This document shows positions 2-15,962 of a DNA stretch of 64,000 nt, one piece after another; the first letter of the stretch is position 1; every line of letters begins with the position of its first letter. Origin of the DNA: Clostridiales bacterium (GTDB lineage Bacteria > Bacillota > Clostridia > Christensenellales > Aristaeellaceae); NCBI GenBank assembly GCA_015056145.1, contig SVGY01000003.1, positions 1 to 64,000 on the forward strand, read 5' to 3'. The notes under the pieces are model-generated. The model did not search any database. It saw only the letters and a program-made list of their open reading frames with translations, and had not been told where the DNA came from. The translations under genes and the position numbers were made by a program.

Positions 2-994
2 GGCAACGCCAACTACCTGTGGATCTCCTATTTCTACGCCTACCTGAACGAAACAGGCCGGGCGGGTTTTGTGATGGCATCCTCCGCCACGGACAGCCAG
101 GGCAAGGATAAGGACATCCGTGAAAAGTTGATCCGCACCGGGCATGTGGACTGCATGGTCTCCGTGGGCAACAACTTTTTCTACACCAAGTCCCTGCCCT
201 GCTCCCTGTGGTTCTTTGACAAGGGGAAGGCGGAAGCCATCCGTGACCGGGTGCTGTTTATCGATGCCCGCAACTACTATACCGTGGTGGATCGCACCCT
301 GAACGAGTGGAGCGACTGGCAGCTGAAGAACCTGAACGCCATTGTGTGGCTGTACCGGGGCGAGGTGGACAAGTACCGGGAGCTGATTGAGGAATACAAA
401 CATGCTATTTGCAACGAAATGAAGATGGCTGCATCATCACTTCAATCCGTTGCAGGTAGTTTCGTTATCAAATACCGTCAGAGCCTGCTTGATGCTGCCA
501 AGAGATTGACTGAAATCAGCACAGAATATTCATCTTCCTTCAAGGAGGAACTCCGTCTCGCCACGAAACTGCTTCGAGATACCTGCAAAGCGTATTTTGA
601 TGAATATTCCAAGGGCAATAGAATTGTTACGGATGAAGTGCTTTCCAATGGTACCTCCAAAAAAGCCATTGCTCTGGATGTTGACGAAACTGCGGCGGTG
701 TTGGAATGCGCCAGTTTGATTGTTTCTGAATACGAGTGGCTGACTGACAAGTTTGGCGATGGCGAATATGCGGATGTGCCCGGTCTGTGCAAGGTAGCCA
801 CGCTGGAAGACATTGAGCAGAAGGGCTGGTCGCTGACTCCGGGCGCATACGTGGGCATAGCCCCTGTAGAGGATGACGGCGTGGACTTTGCACAGCGCAT
901 GAAGGAGATCCATCAGGAGCTGCTGATGCTACAGGAGGAGTCGAATCGGTTGATGGACACCATCTCTAAGAATATGGAGGAGATGGGGGTATGA
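2..994 (+). CDS. hsdM: Type I restriction-modification DNA methyltransferase subunit (HsdM), C-terminal part, truncated by window start
   Basis: Frame open from base 2 (GNANYLWISYFYAYLNETGRAGFVMASSATDSQGKDKDIREKLI...); C-terminal LTPGAYVG motif; followed by hsdS and hsdR. Confidence 0.93.
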   Translation, partial: GNANYLWISYFYAYLNETGRAGFVMASSATDSQGKDKDIREKLIRTGHVDCMVSVGNNFFYTKSLPCSLWFFDKGKAEAIRDRVLFIDARNYYTVVDRTLNEWSDWQLKNLNAIVWLYRGEVDKYRELIEEYKHAICNEMKMAASSLQSVAGSFVIKYRQSLLDAAKRLTEISTEYSSSFKEELRLATKLLRDTCKAYFDEYSKGNRIVTDEVLSNGTSKKAIALDVDETAAVLECASLIVSEYEWLTDKFGDGEYADVPGLCKVATLEDIEQKGWSLTPGAYVGIAPVEDDGVDFAQRMKEIHQELLMLQEESNRLMDTISKNMEEMGV

Positions 995-2217
995 AGTGGG
1001 AAAAGGCTATCCTTGGTGATGTCACAGATTCATGTTTAGGAAAAATGCTGGACCAAGAAAAAAACCGAGGTGAGTACCAACCTTATTTGGCAAACATCGA
1101 TGTCCGCTGGGGTAGTTTTAATCTCGACAATCTGTCGGAAATGCGCTTTGAAGACGATGAAGATGAGCGATATGGTCTGAAATATGGCGATCTTGTTATT
1201 TGTGAGGGTGGAGAACCGGGACGATGCGCAATCTGGAAAGATCAGATTCCAAACATGAAAATTCAAAAAGCCTTGCATAGAGTCCGTGTACACAAAGAAC
1301 TTGATTATCGCTACTTGTTCTATTGGTTTTTATTTGCAGGAAAAACAGGAGCACTCGAGCAATATTTTACCGGTGCCACCATAAAGCATATGCCCGGTCA
1401 AAAGCTAAAAAGTGTTATTATCGACAAACCACCAATTGAAGTCCAGTGCCGCATTGCTGACATTCTCTCCGCATACGACGATCTGATCGAGAACAACCAA
1501 AAGCAGATCAAGTTGCTGGAGGAGGCCGCCCAACGCCTGTACAAAGAATGGTTTGTAGACCTGCGCTTCCCCGGCCACGAAACCACGTCCATTGTAGGCG
1601 GCATCCCCAAAGGATGGTTTATGACAACTGTAGGAGATATAGGTTGTCAGATTGAGTCTGGTTCTCGACCAAAAGGTGGCATAGATTTGTCTTTGCGAGA
1701 TGGCATTCCCAGCATTGGCGCAGAAAATGTTATTGGATTAGGAAAATATAATTTTTCTGCAGACAAACTTGTCTCGTTTGAGTTTTACAACTCAATGAAA
1801 AGAGGAAAACTCAAGGATCGTGATATTCTGATATATAAGGATGGAGCATACATAGGACGAACAAGTTTGTTTCAAGACGGTTTTCCACACGAAAAGGCCG
1901 CAGTAAATGAACACGTATTTTTGTTGCATACAGAAAACAAAAGTCTGCAATACTTCCTCTTTTTTACGCTATACCAGTATGAATACTTTGTAAAAATGCA
2001 GAAGCTAAACAAAAATGCAGCACAGCCAGGAATTAGTGCACAAGCAATGCTGTCTTTGGACATTTTATTACCTCCATTTCATGTGGTTCATGCGTTCGAT
2101 GAATTTGTTTCACCAATTATGAAAAACATTTTTGCAAAAGCAAAGCTGAATCGTGAACTGGCTGAAGCTCGTAATCGTCTCCTTCCAAAGCTAATGAGCG
2201 GAGAAATCGAGGTGTGA
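991..2217 (+). CDS. hsdS: Type I restriction-modification specificity subunit (HsdS), two TRDs
   Basis: Central ILSAYDDLIENNQKQIKLLEEAAQRLYKEWFVDLRFPG and terminal RNRLLPKLMSGEIEV are typical HsdS conserved regions; 4-nt overlap with hsdM. Confidence 0.94.
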   Translation: MKWEKAILGDVTDSCLGKMLDQEKNRGEYQPYLANIDVRWGSFNLDNLSEMRFEDDEDERYGLKYGDLVICEGGEPGRCAIWKDQIPNMKIQKALHRVRVHKELDYRYLFYWFLFAGKTGALEQYFTGATIKHMPGQKLKSVIIDKPPIEVQCRIADILSAYDDLIENNQKQIKLLEEAAQRLYKEWFVDLRFPGHETTSIVGGIPKGWFMTTVGDIGCQIESGSRPKGGIDLSLRDGIPSIGAENVIGLGKYNFSADKLVSFEFYNSMKRGKLKDRDILIYKDGAYIGRTSLFQDGFPHEKAAVNEHVFLLHTENKSLQYFLFFTLYQYEYFVKMQKLNKNAAQPGISAQAMLSLDILLPPFHVVHAFDEFVSPIMKNIFAKAKLNRELAEARNRLLPKLMSGEIEV

Positions 2218-3299
2218 TTATGGAAAATATCTCTGAATTGGAACGGTTGATTTCCATTCGTATTATGCAGGAAGATGCTGAAGCGATTTTCTCTTTGCTT
2301 TCAACTGAAAGAGATAGTGTCTTTGCAATGGAAATTATTCCATATTACGCTTTGTTTGTACAATCGTGTCAAGAGTATATAGGTGAAAACTTTCTTCCAG
2401 AAGAAATTACACTGAGTATTAAAGATATCCGTAACCATATCAAGTCTTATTCGGACTCTTTTGGAAAGTCCAAAAGGAAAGTTGCATCAATAGATCAAGA
2501 ACAGGATACAAGTTTCAAATCACAATTGAGATTCAATTTCCTCAAAAACTGGAATATTCATTTGAATCTCGGCACTTATTGGACAGAAGATCATCACATC
2601 ATAGGCAACACGCAACAGTTGGCAGCGTTTATTGATGTGAAAGATTTCTCAACTCCTGAAGCAGGAAAGAAAGCGTATGAGTTAGGGTATCAGATTGCTT
2701 CATTCGTTTCCTCTGTGCGTAGTGGTTTTTCTGACTCTTTAGGACAACTAATAATTGATAGACCCATCACTGCAATCGGAATAAAAAAATTTTTTGATAT
2801 CAACACAAACAGGCACAACACAATTTTCGTAAATCACGCATCCAAAGAGCTGAATCTTTTCTATTTACATCTCTTGTGCAACATGAATTTTGTTAAACAC
2901 ATTTTAAGACCGTTGTTACCCGAAGGAAATACATGGGCCTTTCGAGTGGAATACATAGTTACTTACTATACATTCCGAGCTTTGCAACGGTTGAAGAATT
3001 ATTGCGAGAACAACGACGATGTTGTAGCAGATACACAAGGGATTGGCGAAATTGAAGATGCTGCAAGCGGATTATTTCTTTCAAAATTCCGCAACTGCAT
3101 GATGCACTATAATCTTGAAAACCAAGGTGTTCTTTCACTTGAACATATTGAACAGCCATTCTATGGTATTATAGAAAATTGCTTTGAAAGCAAGGTATAC
3201 CAAACCTATTTGGCTTCGATTCACGATCTATCTGAACGGATAATCCGTTATTTGGAAAAACACTTTAATTGTGCTGACATTGAGTTGAAACAGCTATAA
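2214..3299 (+). CDS. Uncharacterised protein with C-terminal HEPN-like RNxxxH motif, embedded in the hsd operon (start may be ATG 2220)
   Basis: 361-aa ORF overlapping the hsdS stop; contains SKFRNCMMHYNL (R-N-x3-H); no Walker A motif found by eye. Confidence 0.75.
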   Translation: MIMENISELERLISIRIMQEDAEAIFSLLSTERDSVFAMEIIPYYALFVQSCQEYIGENFLPEEITLSIKDIRNHIKSYSDSFGKSKRKVASIDQEQDTSFKSQLRFNFLKNWNIHLNLGTYWTEDHHIIGNTQQLAAFIDVKDFSTPEAGKKAYELGYQIASFVSSVRSGFSDSLGQLIIDRPITAIGIKKFFDINTNRHNTIFVNHASKELNLFYLHLLCNMNFVKHILRPLLPEGNTWAFRVEYIVTYYTFRALQRLKNYCENNDDVVADTQGIGEIEDAASGLFLSKFRNCMMHYNLENQGVLSLEHIEQPFYGIIENCFESKVYQTYLASIHDLSERIIRYLEKHFNCADIELKQL

Positions 3300-3311
3300 G
3301 GAGATGCCATC

Positions 3312-6300
3312 ATGAGCTACGAGTACTCCGAAAACATCCTCGTGCAGGAAAGCGCAGGCCACCTGCTCCAGCAGGAGCTGGGGTGGGAGGTGGCGTTTGC
3401 CTATAACACCGAGAAGCTGGGCAAGGATGGCACCTTTGGCCGCAGCAGCTACCGGGAGATTTTGCTCAGCCGGTATTTTCGTGGTGCGCTCAAACAGCTT
3501 AACCCATGGATCACCGATGCGCAGGTGGACGAAGCCCAGAAAAAGCTGGAGGGGCATCTTTCCACCGCTTCGCTGATGCAGATCAACGAGGAAAACTACT
3601 TCCTCATCCGGGACGGCATCCCGGTTACGGTGCGCAAGCCCAACGGTCAGACCGAGACCCGGCATGCCATGGTCATCGACTTCCATCACCCCGAGAACAA
3701 TCACTTTCTCGCCATTAAGGAGCTGAAGATTCACGGCGATCTCTACCGCAGGCGCACAGACATCGTGGGCTTTGTCAACGGCATCCCCCTGCTGTTTGTG
3801 GAGCTGAAAAAGAACACCGTGGATGTACAGGCCGCCTACGACGGCAACTATACCGACTATCTGGATACCATCCCCCACCTGTTCCACTACAATGCCTTTC
3901 TGATCCTTTCCAACGGCAGGGAGGCCAAGGTGGGCACGCTGGGCAGCAAGTACGAGTTCTTCCACGAATGGAAACGCCTCTCCGAAGGCGATGCGGGCAG
4001 CGTTGCGCTGGAAACCATGCTGCGGGGCATCTGCCGCAAGGAAACCTTCCTCGATCTATTGGAAAACTTCATCCTCTACGACCACAGCGGCGGCAGAACG
4101 GTCAAGATCCTTGCCCGCAACCATCAGTATCTGGGTGTGAACGAAGCGGTCAAAGCCTATGAAGCCCGCAAGCTCAACAACGGTAAGCTGGGCGTGTTCT
4201 GGCATACGCAGGGTTCGGGCAAGAGCTACTCCATGGTATTCCTCGCCCAGAAGATCCGCAGGCAGTTTGAGGGCAGCCCCACCATTGTCATCCTTACCGA
4301 CCGGGAGGAGCTGAACCGTCAGATCAGCGATACATTTGAAAACTGCCATCTGCTCGGGGCAAAGGCGGCGCAGTTCATCGCCACCAGCGGCACCGATCTG
4401 ATCAACAAGCTGAAGGGCAACCCCAGCTTTGTCTTCACCCTGATCCAAAAATTCAACATGACCGATGTGGATCCCATCTATCCGGATCACGACATCATTA
4501 TCATGTCCGACGAGGCACACCGCAGCCAGTACGGCGTGTTTGCCGATAATATGATGACGCTGCTGCCCACGGCATCCCGCATCGGCTTTACCGGCACGCC
4601 GCTGCTGTCCGGCGACAACATCACTGAGCGCACCTTCGGCGGCTATATCTCCGTGTACGATTTCAAACGGGCGGTGGAGGACGGCGCAACCGTGCCCCTG
4701 TATTATGAGAACCGGGGTGAAAAACTACAGGAGATCCGCAATCCGGAGATCAACGAACGGATTCTGGATGCCATCGAGTCTGCCGATCTGGATGTGAACC
4801 AGCAGGAAAAGCTGGAACGGGAGTTTGCCAAAGAGATCCATCTGCTTACCGCCGAAGCCCGTCTGGATGCTATCGCCAAAGATTTTGTGAGCCACTATAC
4901 CGATCTGTGGAACAGCGGTAAAGCCATGTTCGTCTGCCTGAACAAGGTTACCTGCGTGCGTATGTACAACCTTGTGCAGAAACACTGGCAAACCGCCACC
5001 GAGGAACTGCGGCAGCGTATCCGTCATGCGACCCAGCAGGAAGCTCAAGAGCTGACCCGCAAGCTGGAATGGATGGAGCAGACCGAAATGGCGGTGGTCA
5101 TCAGTCAGGAGCAGAACGAAATTAAGACCTTCCAAAAATGGGGGCTGGATATTCTGCCCCACCGTACCAAAATGGAAAAGCGGGAATTGGACAAGGACTT
5201 CAAAAACGCCGAGCATCCCTTCCGGGTGGTGTTCGTGTGCGCCATGTGGCTGACCGGCTTCGATGTAAAGAGCCTGTCCTGTCTGTATCTGGACAAGCCC
5301 CTGAAAGCCCATACCCTGATGCAGACCATCGCCCGTGCCAACCGTGTTTCGGTGGGCAAAAGCAACGGTTTGATCATCGACTACATCGGAATCGTCAAGG
5401 CGCTGCGAAAGGCATTGGCGGACTATACCGCCAACCTTGAGGGCGGCAGTCAGGATCCCACCATCGACAAAGAACAGTTGGTCAATCGGGTACACGAATT
5501 GATCAGCACGGCTACCGACTATCTGGCAGAGTTTAATTTTTCTGTTGAAGCGCTGGTGAATGCACAGCACTTCGCCAAGCTGGAGCTGTTGGAGGTGGCA
5601 GCCAATGCGCTTTGCGAAACCAGAGAGATCAAGAAAACCTACTGCACCTATCTTTCTGAGCTGACCCGTCTGCTCAAATACTGTGACCGTGATGATGTGG
5701 ATACCGCCACCCGGCGCACCAAAGATGCGCTGGTAGCGATCTACGACGAGTTGCAGAAAAGGCGTATGCATTCCGACAATACGGACTTAATGGTGCAGAT
5801 CAATGCTATCGTGAATGAGTATGTACAGGTAGGTGAAGAACCAGCGTCCTCTCAGGAGAACAAGCGGTTCGACATCAGCCAGATCAACTTCGACCTGTTG
5901 CGCCGTGAGTTTGCCAAGGCCGCCAAAAAGAATCTGATCCTGAAGGATTTGGATGATCTGGTACAGCAGCGGCTGGATCAGATGCTGCGGGAGAATCCCT
6001 GCCGCATCGACTATTACGAGCGGTATCAGGAGATCATTACTGCCTACAACGCCGAACAGGATCGTGCCTCTATCGAAAAGACTTTCATGGAGTTGATGGA
6101 GCTTGCCAATTCCATGGATACCGAGCAGCAGCGTTATGTGCGTGAGGGTTTCTCTTCCGACGAGGAGCTTTCCATGTACGATCTTCTGTTTACCGATAAT
6201 CTGAGCAAGCAGGATATTCAGGCCATCAAGAAAGTGGCGGTGGATCTGCTGGCGAAGATCAAACAAAAGATCGCCGAGTTGGATCACTGGACAGATAAGC

Positions 6301-6443
6301 AAGAGACCAAGGCTATGATCGACAATTTGATCCGTGACACTCTGTGGGCTCAGCTGCCGGAGTGTTATGATGAGATCAGTATTTCCGGATATCGACAGAA
6401 GATCTATGAGTATGTGTATACAAGGTATCGTGGGGTGGCGTGA
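3312..6443 (+). CDS. hsdR: Type I restriction endonuclease subunit R (HsdR)
   Basis: 1043 aa; nuclease region (GIPLLFVELKK), GVFWHTQGSGKSYSMVFLAQ Walker A, SDEAHRSQYG, GFTGTPL, QTIARANRV helicase motifs. Confidence 0.96.
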   Translation: MSYEYSENILVQESAGHLLQQELGWEVAFAYNTEKLGKDGTFGRSSYREILLSRYFRGALKQLNPWITDAQVDEAQKKLEGHLSTASLMQINEENYFLIRDGIPVTVRKPNGQTETRHAMVIDFHHPENNHFLAIKELKIHGDLYRRRTDIVGFVNGIPLLFVELKKNTVDVQAAYDGNYTDYLDTIPHLFHYNAFLILSNGREAKVGTLGSKYEFFHEWKRLSEGDAGSVALETMLRGICRKETFLDLLENFILYDHSGGRTVKILARNHQYLGVNEAVKAYEARKLNNGKLGVFWHTQGSGKSYSMVFLAQKIRRQFEGSPTIVILTDREELNRQISDTFENCHLLGAKAAQFIATSGTDLINKLKGNPSFVFTLIQKFNMTDVDPIYPDHDIIIMSDEAHRSQYGVFADNMMTLLPTASRIGFTGTPLLSGDNITERTFGGYISVYDFKRAVEDGATVPLYYENRGEKLQEIRNPEINERILDAIESADLDVNQQEKLEREFAKEIHLLTAEARLDAIAKDFVSHYTDLWNSGKAMFVCLNKVTCVRMYNLVQKHWQTATEELRQRIRHATQQEAQELTRKLEWMEQTEMAVVISQEQNEIKTFQKWGLDILPHRTKMEKRELDKDFKNAEHPFRVVFVCAMWLTGFDVKSLSCLYLDKPLKAHTLMQTIARANRVSVGKSNGLIIDYIGIVKALRKALADYTANLEGGSQDPTIDKEQLVNRVHELISTATDYLAEFNFSVEALVNAQHFAKLELLEVAANALCETREIKKTYCTYLSELTRLLKYCDRDDVDTATRRTKDALVAIYDELQKRRMHSDNTDLMVQINAIVNEYVQVGEEPASSQENKRFDISQINFDLLRREFAKAAKKNLILKDLDDLVQQRLDQMLRENPCRIDYYERYQEIITAYNAEQDRASIEKTFMELMELANSMDTEQQRYVREGFSSDEELSMYDLLFTDNLSKQDIQAIKKVAVDLLAKIKQKIAELDHWTDKQETKAMIDNLIRDTLWAQLPECYDEISISGYRQKIYEYVYTRYRGVA

Positions 6444-7298: not shown

Positions 7299-7910
7299 AT
7301 CACGATTTACCAACACATCAAGGAACGCATCCCTGTACCCCGGGCCGCCGAGCATTACGGCATGAAGATCACCCATAACGGTATGACCACCTGCCCCTTT
7401 CACGAGGACAGAGACCCCAGCATGAAGCTGAACGAGCGGTACTACTACTGCTTCGGATGTCTGGTGTCGGGAGATGTGATCGATCTCACGGCGCAGCTGC
7501 TTCAGCTGAGCAAACGGCAGGCAGCGGATCGGCTGGCGGCAGATTTTCATCTGACGGACAGCCCATCGGCGGTGCAAACCACACCCGCAAAGACCACTTG
7601 CTCCGTACAAAGCAGACTCAGCGAACTGCGCAGCGTGCTGCTTGCATACGAGGCCACCCTGAAAAAACGGAAAGCCATTTTTGCGCCGGCAGCGCCCGAA
7701 GATGAAATCGACCAGCGGTACATTGCCACCTGCAACCTGCTGGAAGGCATCCGCTATCTGATCGATTCGCTGATCTTCGGCACCGCAGAAGAAAAAGAAA
7801 TGACGCTGGCAGCTTTCCATCAGGATGGGCTGAAGGAGCAGCTGGAAGAGTACATTCAAACATTGATACAGGAGGAACAGCATGCAATCGGCGAGCAACT
7901 ATTTTCGTGA
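7299..7910 (+). CDS. CHC2 zinc-finger DNA primase-like protein of a mobile element (start codon uncertain; first ATG is 7362)
   Basis: Protein ...RIPVPRAAEHYGMKITHNGMTTCPFHEDRDPSMKLNERYYYCFGCLVSGDVIDL: CPFH...CFGC zinc ribbon; aaggaggt at 7283-7290. Confidence 0.8.
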   Translation: MTIYQHIKERIPVPRAAEHYGMKITHNGMTTCPFHEDRDPSMKLNERYYYCFGCLVSGDVIDLTAQLLQLSKRQAADRLAADFHLTDSPSAVQTTPAKTTCSVQSRLSELRSVLLAYEATLKKRKAIFAPAAPEDEIDQRYIATCNLLEGIRYLIDSLIFGTAEEKEMTLAAFHQDGLKEQLEEYIQTLIQEEQHAIGEQLFS

Positions 7911-9189
7911 AACCATCCCCGCTCCCCTCTGGCTGGACTACAAAGGACGGGTCAACGAGGCGACCTTTGCCACGGACTTTCTGCGAACCCACCCCATGAT
8001 CTGCCTTCAAGGCAAGCTGTTTACGGTGGATGGACTGATTGAGGACGAAGCCGCTTTGCTCCGGGAGATCTTCGAGATGATCAGCGGGCACGTGACCACC
8101 AATCTGGCGAAGAAGTCCAAGCAGCTGCTGGAAGCCATCAAGCTGGCGTGTCACTCTGCGCCGCTGCCGGTGCAGTCGGACCGCATCCACATGGCCAACG
8201 GAACCTACTTTCTTGACGGCCGGTTCGACACCGCCAAGGATTTCTGCCTGAACCGTCTGCCGGTTCGTTACGATCCATCCGCAGCGGTGCCGGAGCGTTG
8301 GCTGCAGTTTGTGGATGAGCTGCTGATGCCGGAGGACATCCCTGCCCTGCAGGAGTTTTTCGGGTACGCGCTGCTGCCTGTTACCAAGGCACAGAAAATG
8401 CTGTTGCTTGTAGGCAAGGGCGGCGAGGGCAAGTCCCGGATCGGGCTGGTGCTGCGCTCGCTGTTGGGAGCCAACATGAACACCGGCAGTCTGCAAAAGG
8501 TGGAGACGGATCGTTTCGCCCGGGCAGATCTGGAATACAAGCTGCTGATGGTGGACGATGACATGCGCATGGAAGCCCTCACCGAAACCCATCATCTGAA
8601 ATCCATGGTGACGCTGGAGGATCGCATCGACATTGAGCGCAAGGGTGTACAGAGCACTCAAGGCGTGCTGTATGTGCGCTTCGCCGCCTTCGGCAATGGT
8701 GGTCTGCATGCGCTGTACGACCGCTCCAACGGATTCTATCGGCGGCAGCTGCTGCTCACCACCAAGGATCCTGCGCCTGGTCGGGTGGATGATCCGTACC
8801 TGATCGAGAAGCTGCGTTCTGAGAAAGAGGGTATCCTACTCTGGGCATTGGAGGGGCTGCACCGGCTCATCGACAACCAGTATCACTTCACCATCAGCCC
8901 CCGGATGGAGGAAAACCTCCGGGAAGCGGTGGCAGAGAGCAACAATCTGGTGCAGTTCATGGAGTCCTCCGGATACATCATTCTGGAGAAAGGCTCCGTT
9001 GCCCGGTCCACCAGTCTGTACACCGCCTACGAGCGCTGGTGCACCGACAATCTTGAAAAGCCGCTGTCCCAGAAGACCTTCGTACAGTTCCTTAGGCAGA
9101 ACGAAGTCACCTACGGCATCTCCTATTCCAAGCATGCGGTGGGTGATCAGCGCGGGTTCCACGGCATTCAGGTGAAGTACGTGAACTGA
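7882..9189 (+). CDS. Phage/plasmid primase, P4/D5 family helicase
   Basis: LLVGKGGEGKSRIGLVLRSLLG Walker A; LLMVDDDMR; D5-type helicase region; FAAFGNGGLHALYDRSNGFYRRQLLL. Confidence 0.85.
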   Translation: MQSASNYFRETIPAPLWLDYKGRVNEATFATDFLRTHPMICLQGKLFTVDGLIEDEAALLREIFEMISGHVTTNLAKKSKQLLEAIKLACHSAPLPVQSDRIHMANGTYFLDGRFDTAKDFCLNRLPVRYDPSAAVPERWLQFVDELLMPEDIPALQEFFGYALLPVTKAQKMLLLVGKGGEGKSRIGLVLRSLLGANMNTGSLQKVETDRFARADLEYKLLMVDDDMRMEALTETHHLKSMVTLEDRIDIERKGVQSTQGVLYVRFAAFGNGGLHALYDRSNGFYRRQLLLTTKDPAPGRVDDPYLIEKLRSEKEGILLWALEGLHRLIDNQYHFTISPRMEENLREAVAESNNLVQFMESSGYIILEKGSVARSTSLYTAYERWCTDNLEKPLSQKTFVQFLRQNEVTYGISYSKHAVGDQRGFHGIQVKYVN

Positions 9190-9597: not shown

Positions 9598-9602
9598 AAG
9601 TT

Positions 9603-9636
9603 TTGCCCCATCAGTTTGTGTTGCTGATGGGGTTTA
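9603..9636 (+). terminator. Rho-independent terminator
   Basis: ccccatcag ... ctgatgggg hairpin followed by T-rich sequence. Confidence 0.65.
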
Positions 9637-9895
9637 GTATTTTCCCGAACACTCACCTGATAGTTTACTCTGCTTGATTCTCAATGAGATTAATGATAAG
9701 ATAATTATAGATGCTATGGCGTTCTACGAAGTAAAGTTTCGTAGCTCAAAATAAACATCTATCCTCTTTGAGTTGTTGTCATGTTGCTTAATCATAGTTC
9801 TTAAGTTGCTTCGAAGATATTTTGAAAGCAAATGTTCACATCCCAACAAGAAAAACAACTCATTTGGGGCATTATACTAAAGAAGGGTTGGTATC

Positions 9896-11596
9896 ATGAA
9901 TAGTATTGAACTAAAAACCATAAACGAACTATCTATATACTCTTTTTTCATTCCTGCTTATCAACGAGGTTATCGTTGGACCCCACAGGAAGTTACCGAT
10001 TTATTGATGGATATTGATGAATTTATCCCACGCGAACTCGGAGATGGAGAAAAAAAGACTTGGTATTGCCTCCAACCGATTGTTGTAAAAAATCGTAACG
10101 AAGGCTTATTTGAAGTGATTGATGGACAACAACGATTAACAACTATATATTTGATTTTGCATTATCTGAATCAAGATTATGTTGAGAAAAAGCGTGACAA
10201 GTTGTTTTCTATTGATTATGAAACGAGAAAAGATTCCAAAGAATTCCTAAGTAATCCGGAGTTAGAGAACGAAGAATGTATAGACTATTATTTCATTCAC
10301 AATGCATACTCAACAATTGAAAAATGGTTTGATAAGCGTGAAGAGGATTCCTCGTTCGATAAAAACGAATTTAGATCAAAGCTTAAATTCCATACAAAAG
10401 TCATATGGTACGAAACGACAGAAGACAATGCCATTACTGTCTTTACCAGATTGAATATTGGAAAAATCAGTTTGACTAACGCCGAACTGATCAAAGCTTT
10501 GTTTTTGAACAGTTCCAATTTTAGAGCGGGCAACGAGGATCGAGTTAGACTGCGGCAGATTGAAATAGCAAACGAGTGGGACAGCATCGAAACAGCCTTG
10601 CAAAACAATAAGTTGTGGTATTTCTTGAGTGACGAACAAAAAGAAGATAATCGTATAGAATACATTTTTAATCTCATGAATGATTCAGGAGAAACAGACC
10701 AATATTCTACTTTCCGCTTTTTCTATTCTTGTCTGGCTGGAAAAAGCGAAGAAGTGATGAGCAGTTACTGGGAAAAAATCCAAGCGCATTATCAGCGTTT
10801 TAATGAGTGGTTCAGCGAACGGGAACTGTATCATAAAATTGGGTTTTTGCTTGCTTCAAAAATAGCGAAAATCAAAGATCTGTACAACTGCTCAACATCA
10901 CTAAAGAAAAGAGAATTTGTTCAACATATTGACATGCTGATAAAAAATCATTTCAAACATCAAAATTTGTTTGAATTAGATTATGAGAATAAAAACACAC
11001 AAAATGTTCTTTTGCTATATAATATTTTGACTATGCTACAGAACGAACATGATTCATCCTATTTTCCCTTTGATGAATACAAGCAAAACAGATGGAATAA
11101 AGAACATATTACTTCTCGCAAAGATGTGACCTCTATTCCTGTAATTAATAGGCGTGATTGGCTAAGCGATGTAATAAGTTACATTGATATTTCTCAAGAA
11201 GATGCAAAAGATTTGCCATCATCAATTAACCTTATGCTTACAAATGAAACATATACCGATGATGATTTGTTCACAACATTGTTTGAGAAGATTACTTCGC
11301 ATTTTAATCAATTCATAAACAGCACAGAAGACATTGATGGAATATCGAATTTAGCTTTGTTAGATGAGAAAACGAACAAAGGATATAAAAACGCAGTATT
11401 CCCACTCAAACGGAAATACATCATCGAATTAGACAAAACCGGTGGCTTTGTTCCTGTTTGCACAAAGAACGTATTTCTTAAATACTTCAGCGATTATCCT
11501 CCAAAGATTTCATTCTGGACACAGGATGATCGCGAAAAATACGAACAAGATTTAATTCGAGTCTTGTGCAACTATCTGGAGGTGACAAAACAATGA
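9896..11596 (+). CDS. DUF262 domain protein (GmrSD/ParB-like fold), probable DUF1524-like C-terminus; candidate defence nuclease
   Basis: FIPAYQRGYRWTPQEV, VIDGQQRLTTIYL; C-terminal RWNKEHITSR resembling the DUF1524 EHI motif. Confidence 0.85.
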   Translation: MNSIELKTINELSIYSFFIPAYQRGYRWTPQEVTDLLMDIDEFIPRELGDGEKKTWYCLQPIVVKNRNEGLFEVIDGQQRLTTIYLILHYLNQDYVEKKRDKLFSIDYETRKDSKEFLSNPELENEECIDYYFIHNAYSTIEKWFDKREEDSSFDKNEFRSKLKFHTKVIWYETTEDNAITVFTRLNIGKISLTNAELIKALFLNSSNFRAGNEDRVRLRQIEIANEWDSIETALQNNKLWYFLSDEQKEDNRIEYIFNLMNDSGETDQYSTFRFFYSCLAGKSEEVMSSYWEKIQAHYQRFNEWFSERELYHKIGFLLASKIAKIKDLYNCSTSLKKREFVQHIDMLIKNHFKHQNLFELDYENKNTQNVLLLYNILTMLQNEHDSSYFPFDEYKQNRWNKEHITSRKDVTSIPVINRRDWLSDVISYIDISQEDAKDLPSSINLMLTNETYTDDDLFTTLFEKITSHFNQFINSTEDIDGISNLALLDEKTNKGYKNAVFPLKRKYIIELDKTGGFVPVCTKNVFLKYFSDYPPKISFWTQDDREKYEQDLIRVLCNYLEVTKQ

Positions 11597-13569
11597 ATAA
11601 AGATATACTCTCCTTTTTTGAGTTAGTCAGCGAATACTCTGTACAAATTCCAATCATTCAAAGAGATTATGCTCAAGGTAGAGAACGCAACTCGACAATT
11701 TGCGAGAATTTCTTAACAGCAATAAAGAACAGTCTTATTAACAACAACGCAATAAATCTTGATTTTATTTATGGAAACTTGATTAATGAATGCTTTCTTC
11801 CGTTGGATGGGCAACAACGGTTAACAACGTTGTTTTTGTTACACTGGTACGCTTTTTGTAAGGAACAAAGCAACGACGAATCCATTCGCTCAATTCTAAA
11901 AAAGTTTTCGTATGAAACGAGATTATCTTCTCGAAGATTTTGTGAAGCATTGGTTAATAGCGACATAGTAATCGACAGCAATGCGGATAAGCTCAGCGAA
12001 CAAATACATGATTCAAGATGGTTCTTTATTTCTTGGAAGAATGATTCGACAATAAGAGCTATGCTGCGCACAATCGATTGTATACATGCTAACTTTAAAA
12101 ATGTTGAAAATATATGGGATTCATTGGTTGTGAAACGAAATGTCGTTTTCCACTTGCTTATCCTTGAGGACTTTGGTCTTTCGGATGACCTATACATAAA
12201 GATGAATGCACGTGGTCGTCTGCTCACTCCATTTGAAAACCTGAAAGCAGAAATAGAAGACAAAGTAGAAAGAAACCATTGGGAGGATAGCAAGAACGAA
12301 TTTGACAAGTTTTCACACAAAATCGATGGGTGTTGGACTCATTATCTATGGAAAAACTATCGAAAAAACAATTCTGTAGACAATGCACACATGAATTTTA
12401 TATCAACGCTGCTTATGACAAAATTGTCGACTGGACAAATCGTTAAGGGCTTGGAACGCATTCAGCTCATCCAAAAGTTGAACGATGATAATACGTGCAG
12501 AGAAATAATTGAGTATATTGACAAGGATACTTTTGATTACATATGTTCCTCTTATGAGCTGTATTGTAGACTATTAGAAACAAATGCAATTCCTCAGTTG
12601 ACATTTAGCATGTGGAGACATAGTCCAGAAAAAAATCTGCTACACCAGATCATGATCGGCTCTAACACTTCATACTCTCACAAAGTCTTGTTCTTTGCAC
12701 AAACAGAATATCTACATAGAAACCCTACCATTGATCAAGAAAAATTCTGTGATTGGATGCGTGTAGTTCGCAATATCGTTTCTCGAGCTGACCTTACTCC
12801 TGAAGGTAAACGAGCTGATATTGTTCGAAGGCCTGAATCCTTCAATGGTGCCATTAACCTGGTATATGAATTAGCAGCGGGTTGCGATGATATCTATAAC
12901 TATCTGAGAAACAATGCTGTATCTTCTGCCTTTACCCGTGACCAAATGAAGGAAGAAAGAATAAAAGCAAAGATCATTGTCGATACACCTCAATATAAGG
13001 AATTAATACATAAGGTAGAGGACAATGAGCTATTAAGAGGACATGTAATTTTTGCATTAGAATGTGCGAATTATCGAAACAGTGTTAGTGACATCGATTT
13101 TGAACTTCTCGAAAAAATCCAGAACGTATTCAACACGTATTTCAATAAAGAATTAGATAATTCAAACGTGGAATTTGATAAATTACGTAGAGCGTTGCTC
13201 ACGATCGAAGTTGACGGAAAATATCAGTTCTATAATTATTGGTGGTCTTACTGGTATGCAGGAAATGCAGAAAAAAGGAAACTTCTTTCTGTATATAGAG
13301 AAATCGAATATATAATCGGAAAAGCAGACTCATGTAAGTATTTCCGAAAGTTAGTTCTACTTCTTGTTGAACAAAGCTATGATGATATACTCAATGGATT
13401 TGTTAAGCCAGACAATATGGAAAACTGGCAGTATCGTCTAATAAAAGAGGAACGGTTGCTCTTTGGTTGCGACAAAAAATACATTGCAATACCAGACGAT
13501 CGCTCATATTGCTATTTGTTGAAAGGAATACGTCCTGCTACCATTGAGGGTTCCGTGAAAATTTCTTGA
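11593..13569 (+). CDS. Second DUF262 domain protein, translationally coupled to the first
   Basis: IPIIQRDYAQGR, LDGQQRLTTLFLLHWY, IKMNARGRLLTPFENLKAE; ATGA start/stop overlap at 11593-11596. Confidence 0.85.
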   Translation: MNKDILSFFELVSEYSVQIPIIQRDYAQGRERNSTICENFLTAIKNSLINNNAINLDFIYGNLINECFLPLDGQQRLTTLFLLHWYAFCKEQSNDESIRSILKKFSYETRLSSRRFCEALVNSDIVIDSNADKLSEQIHDSRWFFISWKNDSTIRAMLRTIDCIHANFKNVENIWDSLVVKRNVVFHLLILEDFGLSDDLYIKMNARGRLLTPFENLKAEIEDKVERNHWEDSKNEFDKFSHKIDGCWTHYLWKNYRKNNSVDNAHMNFISTLLMTKLSTGQIVKGLERIQLIQKLNDDNTCREIIEYIDKDTFDYICSSYELYCRLLETNAIPQLTFSMWRHSPEKNLLHQIMIGSNTSYSHKVLFFAQTEYLHRNPTIDQEKFCDWMRVVRNIVSRADLTPEGKRADIVRRPESFNGAINLVYELAAGCDDIYNYLRNNAVSSAFTRDQMKEERIKAKIIVDTPQYKELIHKVEDNELLRGHVIFALECANYRNSVSDIDFELLEKIQNVFNTYFNKELDNSNVEFDKLRRALLTIEVDGKYQFYNYWWSYWYAGNAEKRKLLSVYREIEYIIGKADSCKYFRKLVLLLVEQSYDDILNGFVKPDNMENWQYRLIKEERLLFGCDKKYIAIPDDRSYCYLLKGIRPATIEGSVKIS

Positions 13570-13598
13570 GATAATCACAGATGGTGAATTATCCTGAA

Positions 13599-13640
13599 GC
13601 CGAGGATGCGTAATGCAATTGCGTATTCTCGGCTTTCAGC
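13599..13640 (+). terminator. Probable terminator or hairpin after the DUF262 pair
   Basis: aagccgag...ctcggctt stem with nested pairing. Confidence 0.5.
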
Positions 13641-13796
13641 ATGCTGATGGTTATGCTTCATCAATATATCATACCCACTTGCAAGATCGAAACAAATGAT
13701 ATACAATATCATCTGCAATAAACGCATCCGCCGCAAACAAAGTTGAACCCTGTCGAACCCCCACACCCCCACACCCCCCAAGGAGGTCCCCCCATC

Positions 13797-15962
13797 ATGC
13801 CCGAACACTTCGACATCGCCGGCTACTGCCGAATCTCCGTAGACGACGAACTGGACCGCGATAACGTCTCCATCGAGAACCAGCGTGCCATCATAGCCGA
13901 CTTCGTCAAAACCCGCTTCCCCGGCAGCACCCTCACCTTTTACGAGGATCGGGATCGCTCCGGCTACACCTTTGAGCAGCGGGAAGGATACCAGCAGATG
14001 CGCAAGGGCTTGATGAGCCACCAGTACGATATCCTGATCGTGAAGGACTTCTCCCGTTTTTCCCGCCGTAACAGCCGGGGTCTGGTGGAGCTGGAAGACC
14101 TTCGGGATGCAGGTGCCCGGATCATCTCCATCGGGGACGGCATCGACTTTCCCAACGATGACGACTGGCTGAAAATCCAGTTCCAGTTTCTGATCAACGA
14201 AATGCCGGTCACCGATACCTCCAAGAAGGTGCGTAACGTGATCCGCCGCCGCCAGCAGGACGGGCAGTGGCTCTGCGCCGCCCCTTACGGCTACATTATC
14301 AACAAGCGCAAAGAATTCGAGATCGTGCCCACGGAGGCTGAAATCGTGCGGCTGATCTTTAAACTGTACGACGAAAGCGGCTGGGGTTATAAGAAGATCG
14401 CCAACCATCTGACGGAGCAGGGCATCCCCACGCCCCGGATGAGCGAGCAGATGCGCAAGGAGGCCGAGGGCGGTGAAAGCAACCGGCAGATCAAGCACGC
14501 ATGGGCCATTGTGACGGTTCAGGGCATTCTGGATAACGACTTCTACATCGGCACCTTCCGGCAGGGCAAGTACACCCGTGCCAAGATCAATGGCAAGGAT
14601 GTGAAGCGGGACGAGGGCGAGCACATCGTCATCGAGAACCACCATCAGGCTATTATCGACTACCGCACCTTTGCTACTACCAAGGCACTGCGGGAGAACC
14701 GTAGCCGTGCCAACTATCGTGGTGTCAAGAAGAACGACAATGTGTACTCCGGCTTCCTTGCCTGCGGCGACTGCGGCAGCCCCATGTTCGCCATGAGCCG
14801 CAGCGATTTGCAGCCCGCCTACACCTGCGGCACCTATCACCGCCGGGGCAGGGCAGGCTGCACCAGCCATCACATCCGGGTGGATAAGCTGGACGAGCTT
14901 CTGAAGATTTACGTCCGCAAGCTGATGCACGCCTCCGCCGGAATGATCGACAAACTGAACGCCGACCTTGCAGACGAGAACGACAGCATCACTGAAACGG
15001 AACAATCCGCCGACCATCTGGCGGAGGTACTGGAAGAACTGCAAGAGGAACTGAAGATCACCAAACGGCAGCGCATCCGGGACTTGCTCAAGCACCCGGA
15101 TCAGGAAAAGCTGCTGGAGGAAACCTACGACGAGCTGGAAAGCGACCTGCAACAGAAGATCGCCGGTCTCACCAACCAGATCCAGCTGCTGTCTGACAAG
15201 CGCAACACCATCATTCAGGTGAACCGGGTGGCCAAGACCGCCATGGACGTATTCCAAGACATTCTCGAAAAAGCCAAGCTGGATCGTACCGATCTGGAAC
15301 TCATCATCCGGCAGATCAAGGTCTACGAAGACCATCTGGAAATCCAGCTGCAGGCCGACATCGACACCCTCATCCGCACGGAAGCCATGGAGGACACCGT
15401 AAATTTTAATCAGGGCATCGAAAACTTGAGCTGCCGGATTGTCCAAACGGCCAGAAACCAGAAGGACAAGGTTTTCGATGTCCGTGTTATCAGTGACGGC
15501 GACCCGTTGGAAATCTACACCGACAGGGATGGCGAAGTGATCCTGAAAAAATATTCTCCCATTGGGGAAATGTCTTCCTTTGCCAAGGATTATACGGAAT
15601 CCATCTTCCGGGCCATGGGGCATATCGCCTGCATTGTGGACAGGGATCAGGTGGTGGCTGCCAGCGGTGTCAGCAAAAAGGAACTCAATGACAAACCCAT
15701 CAGCCCCGAAATGGAAACCGCTATTGCCAACCGGCAGACGGTGGCCATCAACCGTGCCGGCGGTGGTCGGATTGTGGCGGTAACCAGCGAGGAGGATATT
15801 AACGGATATACGGCTCAGGTGGTATCGCCCATCATTGCAGATGGCGAGGCCATTGGCGCAGTGCTTCTTCTGTCCAAGGAGCAGGGGGCGCACATGGGCG
15901 ATGCGGAACTGAAGGTGGCGGAAACTGCTGCCGGTATTGTGGGCCGCCAGATGGAACAATAA
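13797..15962 (+). CDS. Large serine recombinase (resolvase, recombinase and zinc-ribbon domains) fused in frame to a C-terminal SpoVT segment
   Basis: N-term DIAGYCRISVDDELDRDNVSIENQRAII, Recombinase and zf regions (SGFLACGDCGSPMF); from about 15500 GDPLEIYTDRDGEVILKKYSPIGEMSSFAKDY...AETAAGIVGRQMEQ matches SpoVT residues from about 31 to the end. Confidence 0.93.
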   Translation: MPEHFDIAGYCRISVDDELDRDNVSIENQRAIIADFVKTRFPGSTLTFYEDRDRSGYTFEQREGYQQMRKGLMSHQYDILIVKDFSRFSRRNSRGLVELEDLRDAGARIISIGDGIDFPNDDDWLKIQFQFLINEMPVTDTSKKVRNVIRRRQQDGQWLCAAPYGYIINKRKEFEIVPTEAEIVRLIFKLYDESGWGYKKIANHLTEQGIPTPRMSEQMRKEAEGGESNRQIKHAWAIVTVQGILDNDFYIGTFRQGKYTRAKINGKDVKRDEGEHIVIENHHQAIIDYRTFATTKALRENRSRANYRGVKKNDNVYSGFLACGDCGSPMFAMSRSDLQPAYTCGTYHRRGRAGCTSHHIRVDKLDELLKIYVRKLMHASAGMIDKLNADLADENDSITETEQSADHLAEVLEELQEELKITKRQRIRDLLKHPDQEKLLEETYDELESDLQQKIAGLTNQIQLLSDKRNTIIQVNRVAKTAMDVFQDILEKAKLDRTDLELIIRQIKVYEDHLEIQLQADIDTLIRTEAMEDTVNFNQGIENLSCRIVQTARNQKDKVFDVRVISDGDPLEIYTDRDGEVILKKYSPIGEMSSFAKDYTESIFRAMGHIACIVDRDQVVAASGVSKKELNDKPISPEMETAIANRQTVAINRAGGGRIVAVTSEEDINGYTAQVVSPIIADGEAIGAVLLLSKEQGAHMGDAELKVAETAAGIVGRQMEQ
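15495..15962 (+). pseudogene. spoVT: 3' portion of spoVT (lacks the N-terminal half of the AbrB domain) at the right junction of the element
   Basis: GDPLEIYTDRDGEVILKKYSPIGE plus GAF-like C-terminus; located immediately before SpoVB/yabM-mazG/yabN-hup as spoVT is in Bacillus. Confidence 0.85.

Follow-up and report, generated by a model that had tools for sequence, protein, structure and literature searches.

The locus lies within a 64,000-nt stretch (the window) of contig SVGY01000003.1 from a Clostridiales genome (GCA_015056145.1) and consists of two adjacent genes on the forward strand. The first, P1 (9896..11596, ATG start), encodes a 566-aa protein in which a DUF262 domain is followed by a helical linker and a DUF1524 (HNH) domain. 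The second, P2 (11593..13569, ATG start), encodes a 658-aa protein with a DUF262 domain and a largely helical C-terminal half. Both proteins belong to PF03235 (GmrSD_N; E = 3.2e-31 for P1 and 1.5e-19 for P2), as a first-pass annotation of this DNA had proposed, and the motifs that it quoted, VIDGQQRLTTIYL, LDGQQRLTTLFLL and EHITSR, are all present. A whole-genome search returns P1 and P2 as the only PF03235 proteins above the family cut-off. Their DUF262 domains are mutually homologous (hhalign probability 98.7, covering P1 residues 5-242), with the C-terminal halves falling outside the alignment.

The TGA stop codon of P1 sits on the ATG of P2 in an ATGA overlap (11593..11596), again as described earlier, and a Shine-Dalgarno-like GGAGG (11578..11582) is found 10 nt before the P2 ATG. 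The ORF caller starts P2 at a GTG at 11566, which is an in-frame extension upstream of the ATG at 11593. Among relatives, the spacing between the two genes is -14 to +11 nt at 27 of the 29 junctions measured. Given the gene overlap, coupled translation of P1 and P2 is plausible. Upstream of the pair lies a terminator-like hairpin on the forward strand, with an 11-pair stem and a T tract (9605..9633), which is a match to the consensus only; it suggests that P1 and P2 may form their own transcription unit. In a promoter scan, matches were no more numerous than in shuffled sequences.

The DUF262 domain of P1, a ParB/Srx-like NTPase/sensor domain (9938..10507), matches PF03235 above the family cut-off and carries three motifs that are invariant in 30/30 homologues: Q23-R24, the DGQQR nucleotide-binding motif (D76-R80; 10121..10135) and F183/N187. 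The DUF1524/His-Me (HNH) nuclease core follows at 11078..11440, with E403-H404 at 11102-11107, N485 at 11348-11350 and N494 at 11375-11377. The C-terminus of the window's P1, searched singly against Pfam, does not reach GmrSD_C (PF07510), and the assignment rests on the family alignment, in which 25 of the 30 members match this domain and E403, H404, N485, L488, L489, N494 and K505 are invariant. These residues make up the published GmrD motifs, (E/D)H, NLxLLxxxN and NxxFxxK (PMC4619093). The suspicion that EHITSR is a DUF1524-like motif is thus borne out, E403-H404 being its invariant part.

The AlphaFold2 model of P1 (mean pLDDT 79.7, with moderate local confidence at the HNH core) places these residues in a beta-beta-alpha core formed by strands 400-404 and 486-490 and helix 491-497. 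H404 ends the first strand, N485 just precedes the next, and N494 lies in the following helix. Foldseek searches with the model return DndI and SspE as top matches, and profile searches match DndI (9jfl, E 2e-18, profile positions 7-511) as well as SspE and BrxU. From its domains and motifs, P1 is predicted to be a complete GmrSD-like enzyme.

P2 retains the same kind of N-terminal domain (11620..12255), which scores above the PF03235 cut-off. Its QR and DGQQR (D72-R76; 11806..11820) motifs are present in 29/29 homologues. The third DUF262 motif departs slightly from the FxxxN given in the GrwAB paper: P2 has YIKMN (within YIKMNxRG), and YxxxN is found in 28/29. The C-terminal half of P2 (12256..13566) also contains conserved residues: R390, N394, E455, K458, E476, G483 and W612 each recur in 27 or more of the 29 members. 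In a model of medium confidence (pLDDT 74.6), residues from about 230 to 658 are largely helical. No Pfam domain besides DUF262 is detected in the 29 relatives, PADLOC gives no specific domain for this half, and Foldseek and PDB profile searches find nothing past the DUF262 domain, their only matches being SspE, DndI and BrxU. The inspection of both C-termini for nuclease domains called for by the first-pass annotation therefore gives DUF1524/HNH for P1 and nothing for P2, in line with its remark that P2 has no recognizable nuclease. With 658 aa, P2 is short compared to most relatives (700-860 aa), and the two proteins most closely related to it, at 665 and 660 aa, are just as short.

The two genes were asked to be adjacent in other genomes if they are to be regarded as a pair, and they are: P1 precedes P2 on one strand in 36/36 paired loci drawn from plasmids, IMG/VR contigs, Bacillota genomes and E. 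coli (35 distinct loci, since L145 and L146 are near-identical). Among plasmid records matching P2, 16/16 have a P1 match alongside, and 11 of these were inspected. Members of the P1 family score at least 201, with split-gene fragments at 144 and 116, compared to at most about 115 for other DUF262 proteins. The exceptions to pairing are P1 without P2 in L069, a P2 remnant in L151 and a P1 cut by the contig end in L074; P1 is frameshifted in L007 and L072. In L007 (6201-7929), on a Paraburkholderia plasmid, the frameshift splits P1 and P2 is intact. The conservation of adjacency and order is far beyond chance, and the pairing is close to obligate. The two proteins are also co-inherited, as their distance matrices correlate with a Mantel r of 0.949, a value reached in 0/5000 permutations, none of which exceeds 0.44.

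According to the records, the hosts belong to at least six phyla (Bacillota, Bacteroidota, Actinomycetota, Campylobacterota, Pseudomonadota and Spirochaetota). Within the phylum of the window's host, 5/399 genomes carry the pair. In E. coli, the pair or part of it occurs in 28/5426 genomes, with at least 80% of the query covered in 7. An intact chromosomal pair by tRNA-Gly/Cys/Leu and yecA is seen at L181 (7982-12245) and similar E. coli loci (7/5426 genomes); other E. coli strains retain the pair only partly, in some with an IS3-family transposase gene within the stretch. The closest homologues are L148 (68% identity for P1 and 62% for P2) and L003 (56% and 47%). A single-protein query of genome contigs gave one relative only, and the phage records searched contain no full-length relative.

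Downstream of P2, a large serine recombinase ORF (13743..15962, forward strand; PF00239 and PF07508; likely start ATG 13797) runs in frame into the 3' part of spoVT (PF15714, 2.5e-43). This agrees with the earlier description of a spoVT element. The genome carries the 5' part of spoVT on a different contig (G000:C28:14867-14974), and spoVT is intact in five congeners. In congeners G057 and G106, the 5' part lies at the opposite end of an element of about 26-34 kb, a skin-like arrangement. In the window, the element also carries type I restriction-modification genes (71..6443, forward strand), consisting of HsdM, truncated where the contig ends, HsdS, a 361-aa ORF and HsdR. The genes from hsdS to hsdR are contiguous at 991-6443, and the 361-aa ORF between them (2214-3299, a RloF-like position) has no significant Pfam or PADLOC match and does not belong to the DUF262 proteins. 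Another 3.4 kb downstream comes the pair, separated from hsdR by the primase genes of the element backbone, a CHC2 primase-like ORF and a P4-family primase/helicase (DUF5906; 7362..9189, forward strand), which are 95% identical in the sister-species element. The spoVT element of another congener (L171 3398-15060, G106:C157) carries a type I RM system that differs from this one; a RelA/SpoT-domain protein is encoded between its genes, and a DUF6119 protein precedes them.

The element recurs over about 34 kb in the sister species, G057, where HsdR and primase are 95-97% identical and the recombinase is 92% identical. Identity of 95% holds up to 9597 and resumes at 13778 at 92%; in between, the cargo slot of the window (9598..13777) is replaced by 9.6 kb of unrelated genes, including McrBC-like ones. 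In G057 (L170 7604-13582, G057:C22), McrC (PF10117, 6e-89) is encoded together with an AAA_5 protein and a further protein that partly matches BnzB in PADLOC. The GC content of the pair is 0.353 compared to 0.540 in the flanks, the largest contrast among the 28 loci compared, which fits a recent arrival. The pair is separately acquired, exchangeable cargo of the spoVT element, in agreement with the inference of separate acquisition drawn earlier from AT-richness.

The features above closely resemble those reported for GrwAB, a two-protein modification-dependent (type IV) restriction system from VSP-II of the V. cholerae WASA lineage that is active against T-even and 7-deazaguanine phages (Nat Microbiol 2025; PMC12137116). 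There, grwA is the first gene and encodes DUF262-linker-DUF1524, grwB is the second and encodes DUF262 plus long unknown domains, both genes are required for defence, and DGQQR and HNH (H/N/N) mutants are inactive (PMC12137116). P1-P2 is likewise a two-gene operon with the DUF1524-bearing partner first, here with an ATGA overlap. Like GrwA, P1 has QR, DGQQR and FxxxN in an N-terminal DUF262 domain and, in the AlphaFold2 model, H, N and N in the beta-beta-alpha fold of a C-terminal DUF1524 domain. Like GrwB, P2 has an N-terminal DUF262 domain, in this case with YxxxN as third motif, then a long C-terminus without a Pfam domain. DGQQR is found in both proteins, both systems are carried on genomic islands, and the frequencies are similar at about 1% of genomes (471/45,725 for GrwAB; PMC12137116).

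The spacing of the catalytic residues also compares well. The two asparagines are 9 residues apart in GrwA (N521/N530) and in P1 (N485/N494), and the distance from the histidine to the first asparagine is 90 in GrwA, 81 in P1 and 64-102 in most of the P1 family. In L144, the P1 residue numbers H431/N521/N530 are identical to those of GrwA; we did not count this as evidence, the DGQQR arginine being at 87 versus 81. P1-P2 differs from GrwAB in lying in a Bacillota spoVT element and in having a P2 on the short side.

Taken together, we propose, at a probability of roughly 0.82, that P1 and P2 constitute a two-protein restriction system of the GrwAB type, a type IV (modification-dependent) member of the GmrSD family, which an element inserted in spoVT carries as exchangeable defence cargo. 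P1 would be the GrwA-like and P2 the GrwB-like gene. That the pair belongs to the broadly defined GmrSD family (type IV) follows from the presence of both DUF262 and DUF1524. Because the comparison with GrwAB was made by published architecture, gene order and residues, that is by description and not by sequence, membership of the GrwAB type rests on architecture. By this likeness, modification-dependent restriction, the function suggested in the first-pass annotation, is also the one we judge most likely. The pair was in addition put forward as a candidate undescribed system, which no longer holds: GrwAB (2025) has the same two-gene architecture and order, and the related TgvAB was published in 2024. 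PADLOC 2023, which is older than the GrwAB publication, and NCBIfam give no specific or full-length match, only partial DUF262-region matches to HEC-06, Orf5 and SspE; in substance, the already described system is GrwAB (PMC12137116). Filed by its architecture, the pair is a new, diverse example of a kind of system published in 2024-2025.

Other known systems were compared in the same way. TgvAB, from V. cholerae VPI-2, has the DUF262-only TgvA first, and H571 and N602 of TgvB are 31 apart (J Bacteriol 2024; PMC11411939). It shares with P1-P2 two DUF262 proteins, one with DUF1524, and a location with type I RM genes, and in TgvAB both proteins are required. We rejected TgvAB membership, since the order of P1 and P2 is reversed, the H-to-N spacing is 81 versus 31, and the pair lies beside the RM operon, whereas TgvAB is embedded in it. 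The single-chain type IV enzymes GmrSD, BrxU and HEC-06 (PMC4619093, PMC8565348) have the domain order and motifs of P1, but they work as one protein, whereas P1 is nearly always accompanied by P2. Menshen, Dazbog and PD-T4-2 each contain a DUF262 protein, reported without DUF1524 and with other partners, such as a predicted OLD nuclease in Menshen (PMC10952713). PADLOC gives a weak NsnA match only (E 2e-5, within residues 64-206). Dazbog is set apart by description, with both the review text and the absence of a PADLOC match arguing against it.

SspE and DndI, the best structural matches of P1, are phosphorothioate-sensing nickases that depend on Ssp/Dnd modification genes (PDB 7drs, 9jfl; PMC11662687). 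They share the DUF262 plus HNH fold with P1, but have no P2-like partner. A search of the 16 kb surrounding the pair and of the annotated neighbourhoods on plasmids found no ssp/dnd phosphorothioation genes, and membership was rejected for lack of linked modification genes in these regions. The resemblance nevertheless feeds an alternative in which P1-P2 forms a two-protein clade of its own within the GmrSD family, not orthologous to GrwAB and TgvAB but parallel to both, and responds to a different trigger, such as phosphorothioate or some other mark on the backbone. Two-protein GmrSD systems arose in more than one form, as TgvAB and GrwAB illustrate, the nearest solved structures by profile are phosphorothioate sensors, and the likeness to GrwAB is one of description. 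We consider this alternative improbable, as gene order and the long-C-terminus partner agree with GrwAB and not TgvAB, and the absence of dnd/ssp genes from the regions scanned speaks against such a trigger.

Two further alternatives fare worse. The pair could kill or arrest the host, by abortive infection or as a toxin-antitoxin module, instead of restricting modified DNA, and such modules do show tight overlap and co-inheritance; P1 and P2 are however both large, have DGQQR intact and are not antitoxin-like, which makes this very unlikely. That the pair has decayed in this genome or survives as a remnant without function, as the short P2 and the broken relatives (the frameshifted P1 of L007 and L072, the lone P2 fragment of L151) might hint, is hardly credible, since both frames are open and full length compared to L148 and L003 and every catalytic residue is present.

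Returning to the GrwAB-type reading, a mechanism can be sketched from GrwAB, TgvAB, SspE, DndI and BrxU. P1 would combine an NTPase/sensor (DUF262) with an HNH nuclease (DUF1524), and P2 would contribute a second, active-looking DUF262 domain and the large helical C-terminal region. The two proteins may form a complex, in which one or both DUF262 domains would recognize a hypermodified base when phage DNA enters the cell. A conformational change driven by NTP turnover would then license the HNH centre of P1 (H404/N485/N494) to nick or cut the modified DNA. By analogy with these systems, P1-P2 very probably attacks chemically modified phage DNA.

The exchange of cargo in the sister species bears on this function. 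McrBC is a modification-dependent restriction system, and because the G057 slot carries McrBC-like genes where the window has P1-P2, one slot appears to hold two different modification-dependent restriction modules. The McrBC-like genes provide independent support for the function of P1-P2. The common slot suggests that such elements trade equivalent attacks on modified phage DNA. A more tentative proposal, which we regard as doubtful when taken as a whole, is that P2/GrwB has as its C-terminal half a new helical module, which would either read the modified base or gate the nuclease of the partner, and that the spoVT element swaps modification-dependent restriction modules (GrwAB-like, McrBC-like) via one cargo slot.

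The role of the P2 tail is the most interesting point of the system, and the pair offers a test bed for GrwB function: about 30 diverse sequences reveal conserved residues of the GrwB partner, making its role testable by mutation. Experimental work on GrwAB-type systems has been confined to a pandemic island of Vibrio, and our analysis extends them to an element of a spore-former and to at least six phyla of bacteria, with E. coli chromosomes among the carriers.

Neighbouring genes also favour the GrwAB-type reading: besides the type I RM genes in the window's element, QatABC lies near one plasmid copy of the pair and an Abi-family gene near another. A WYL-domain regulator is near the pair in 4/11 plasmid loci (L004, L005, L012 and L013). 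Directly upstream of P1, two of these loci (L004 and L013) have a 3'-5' exonuclease gene that may represent an accessory module.
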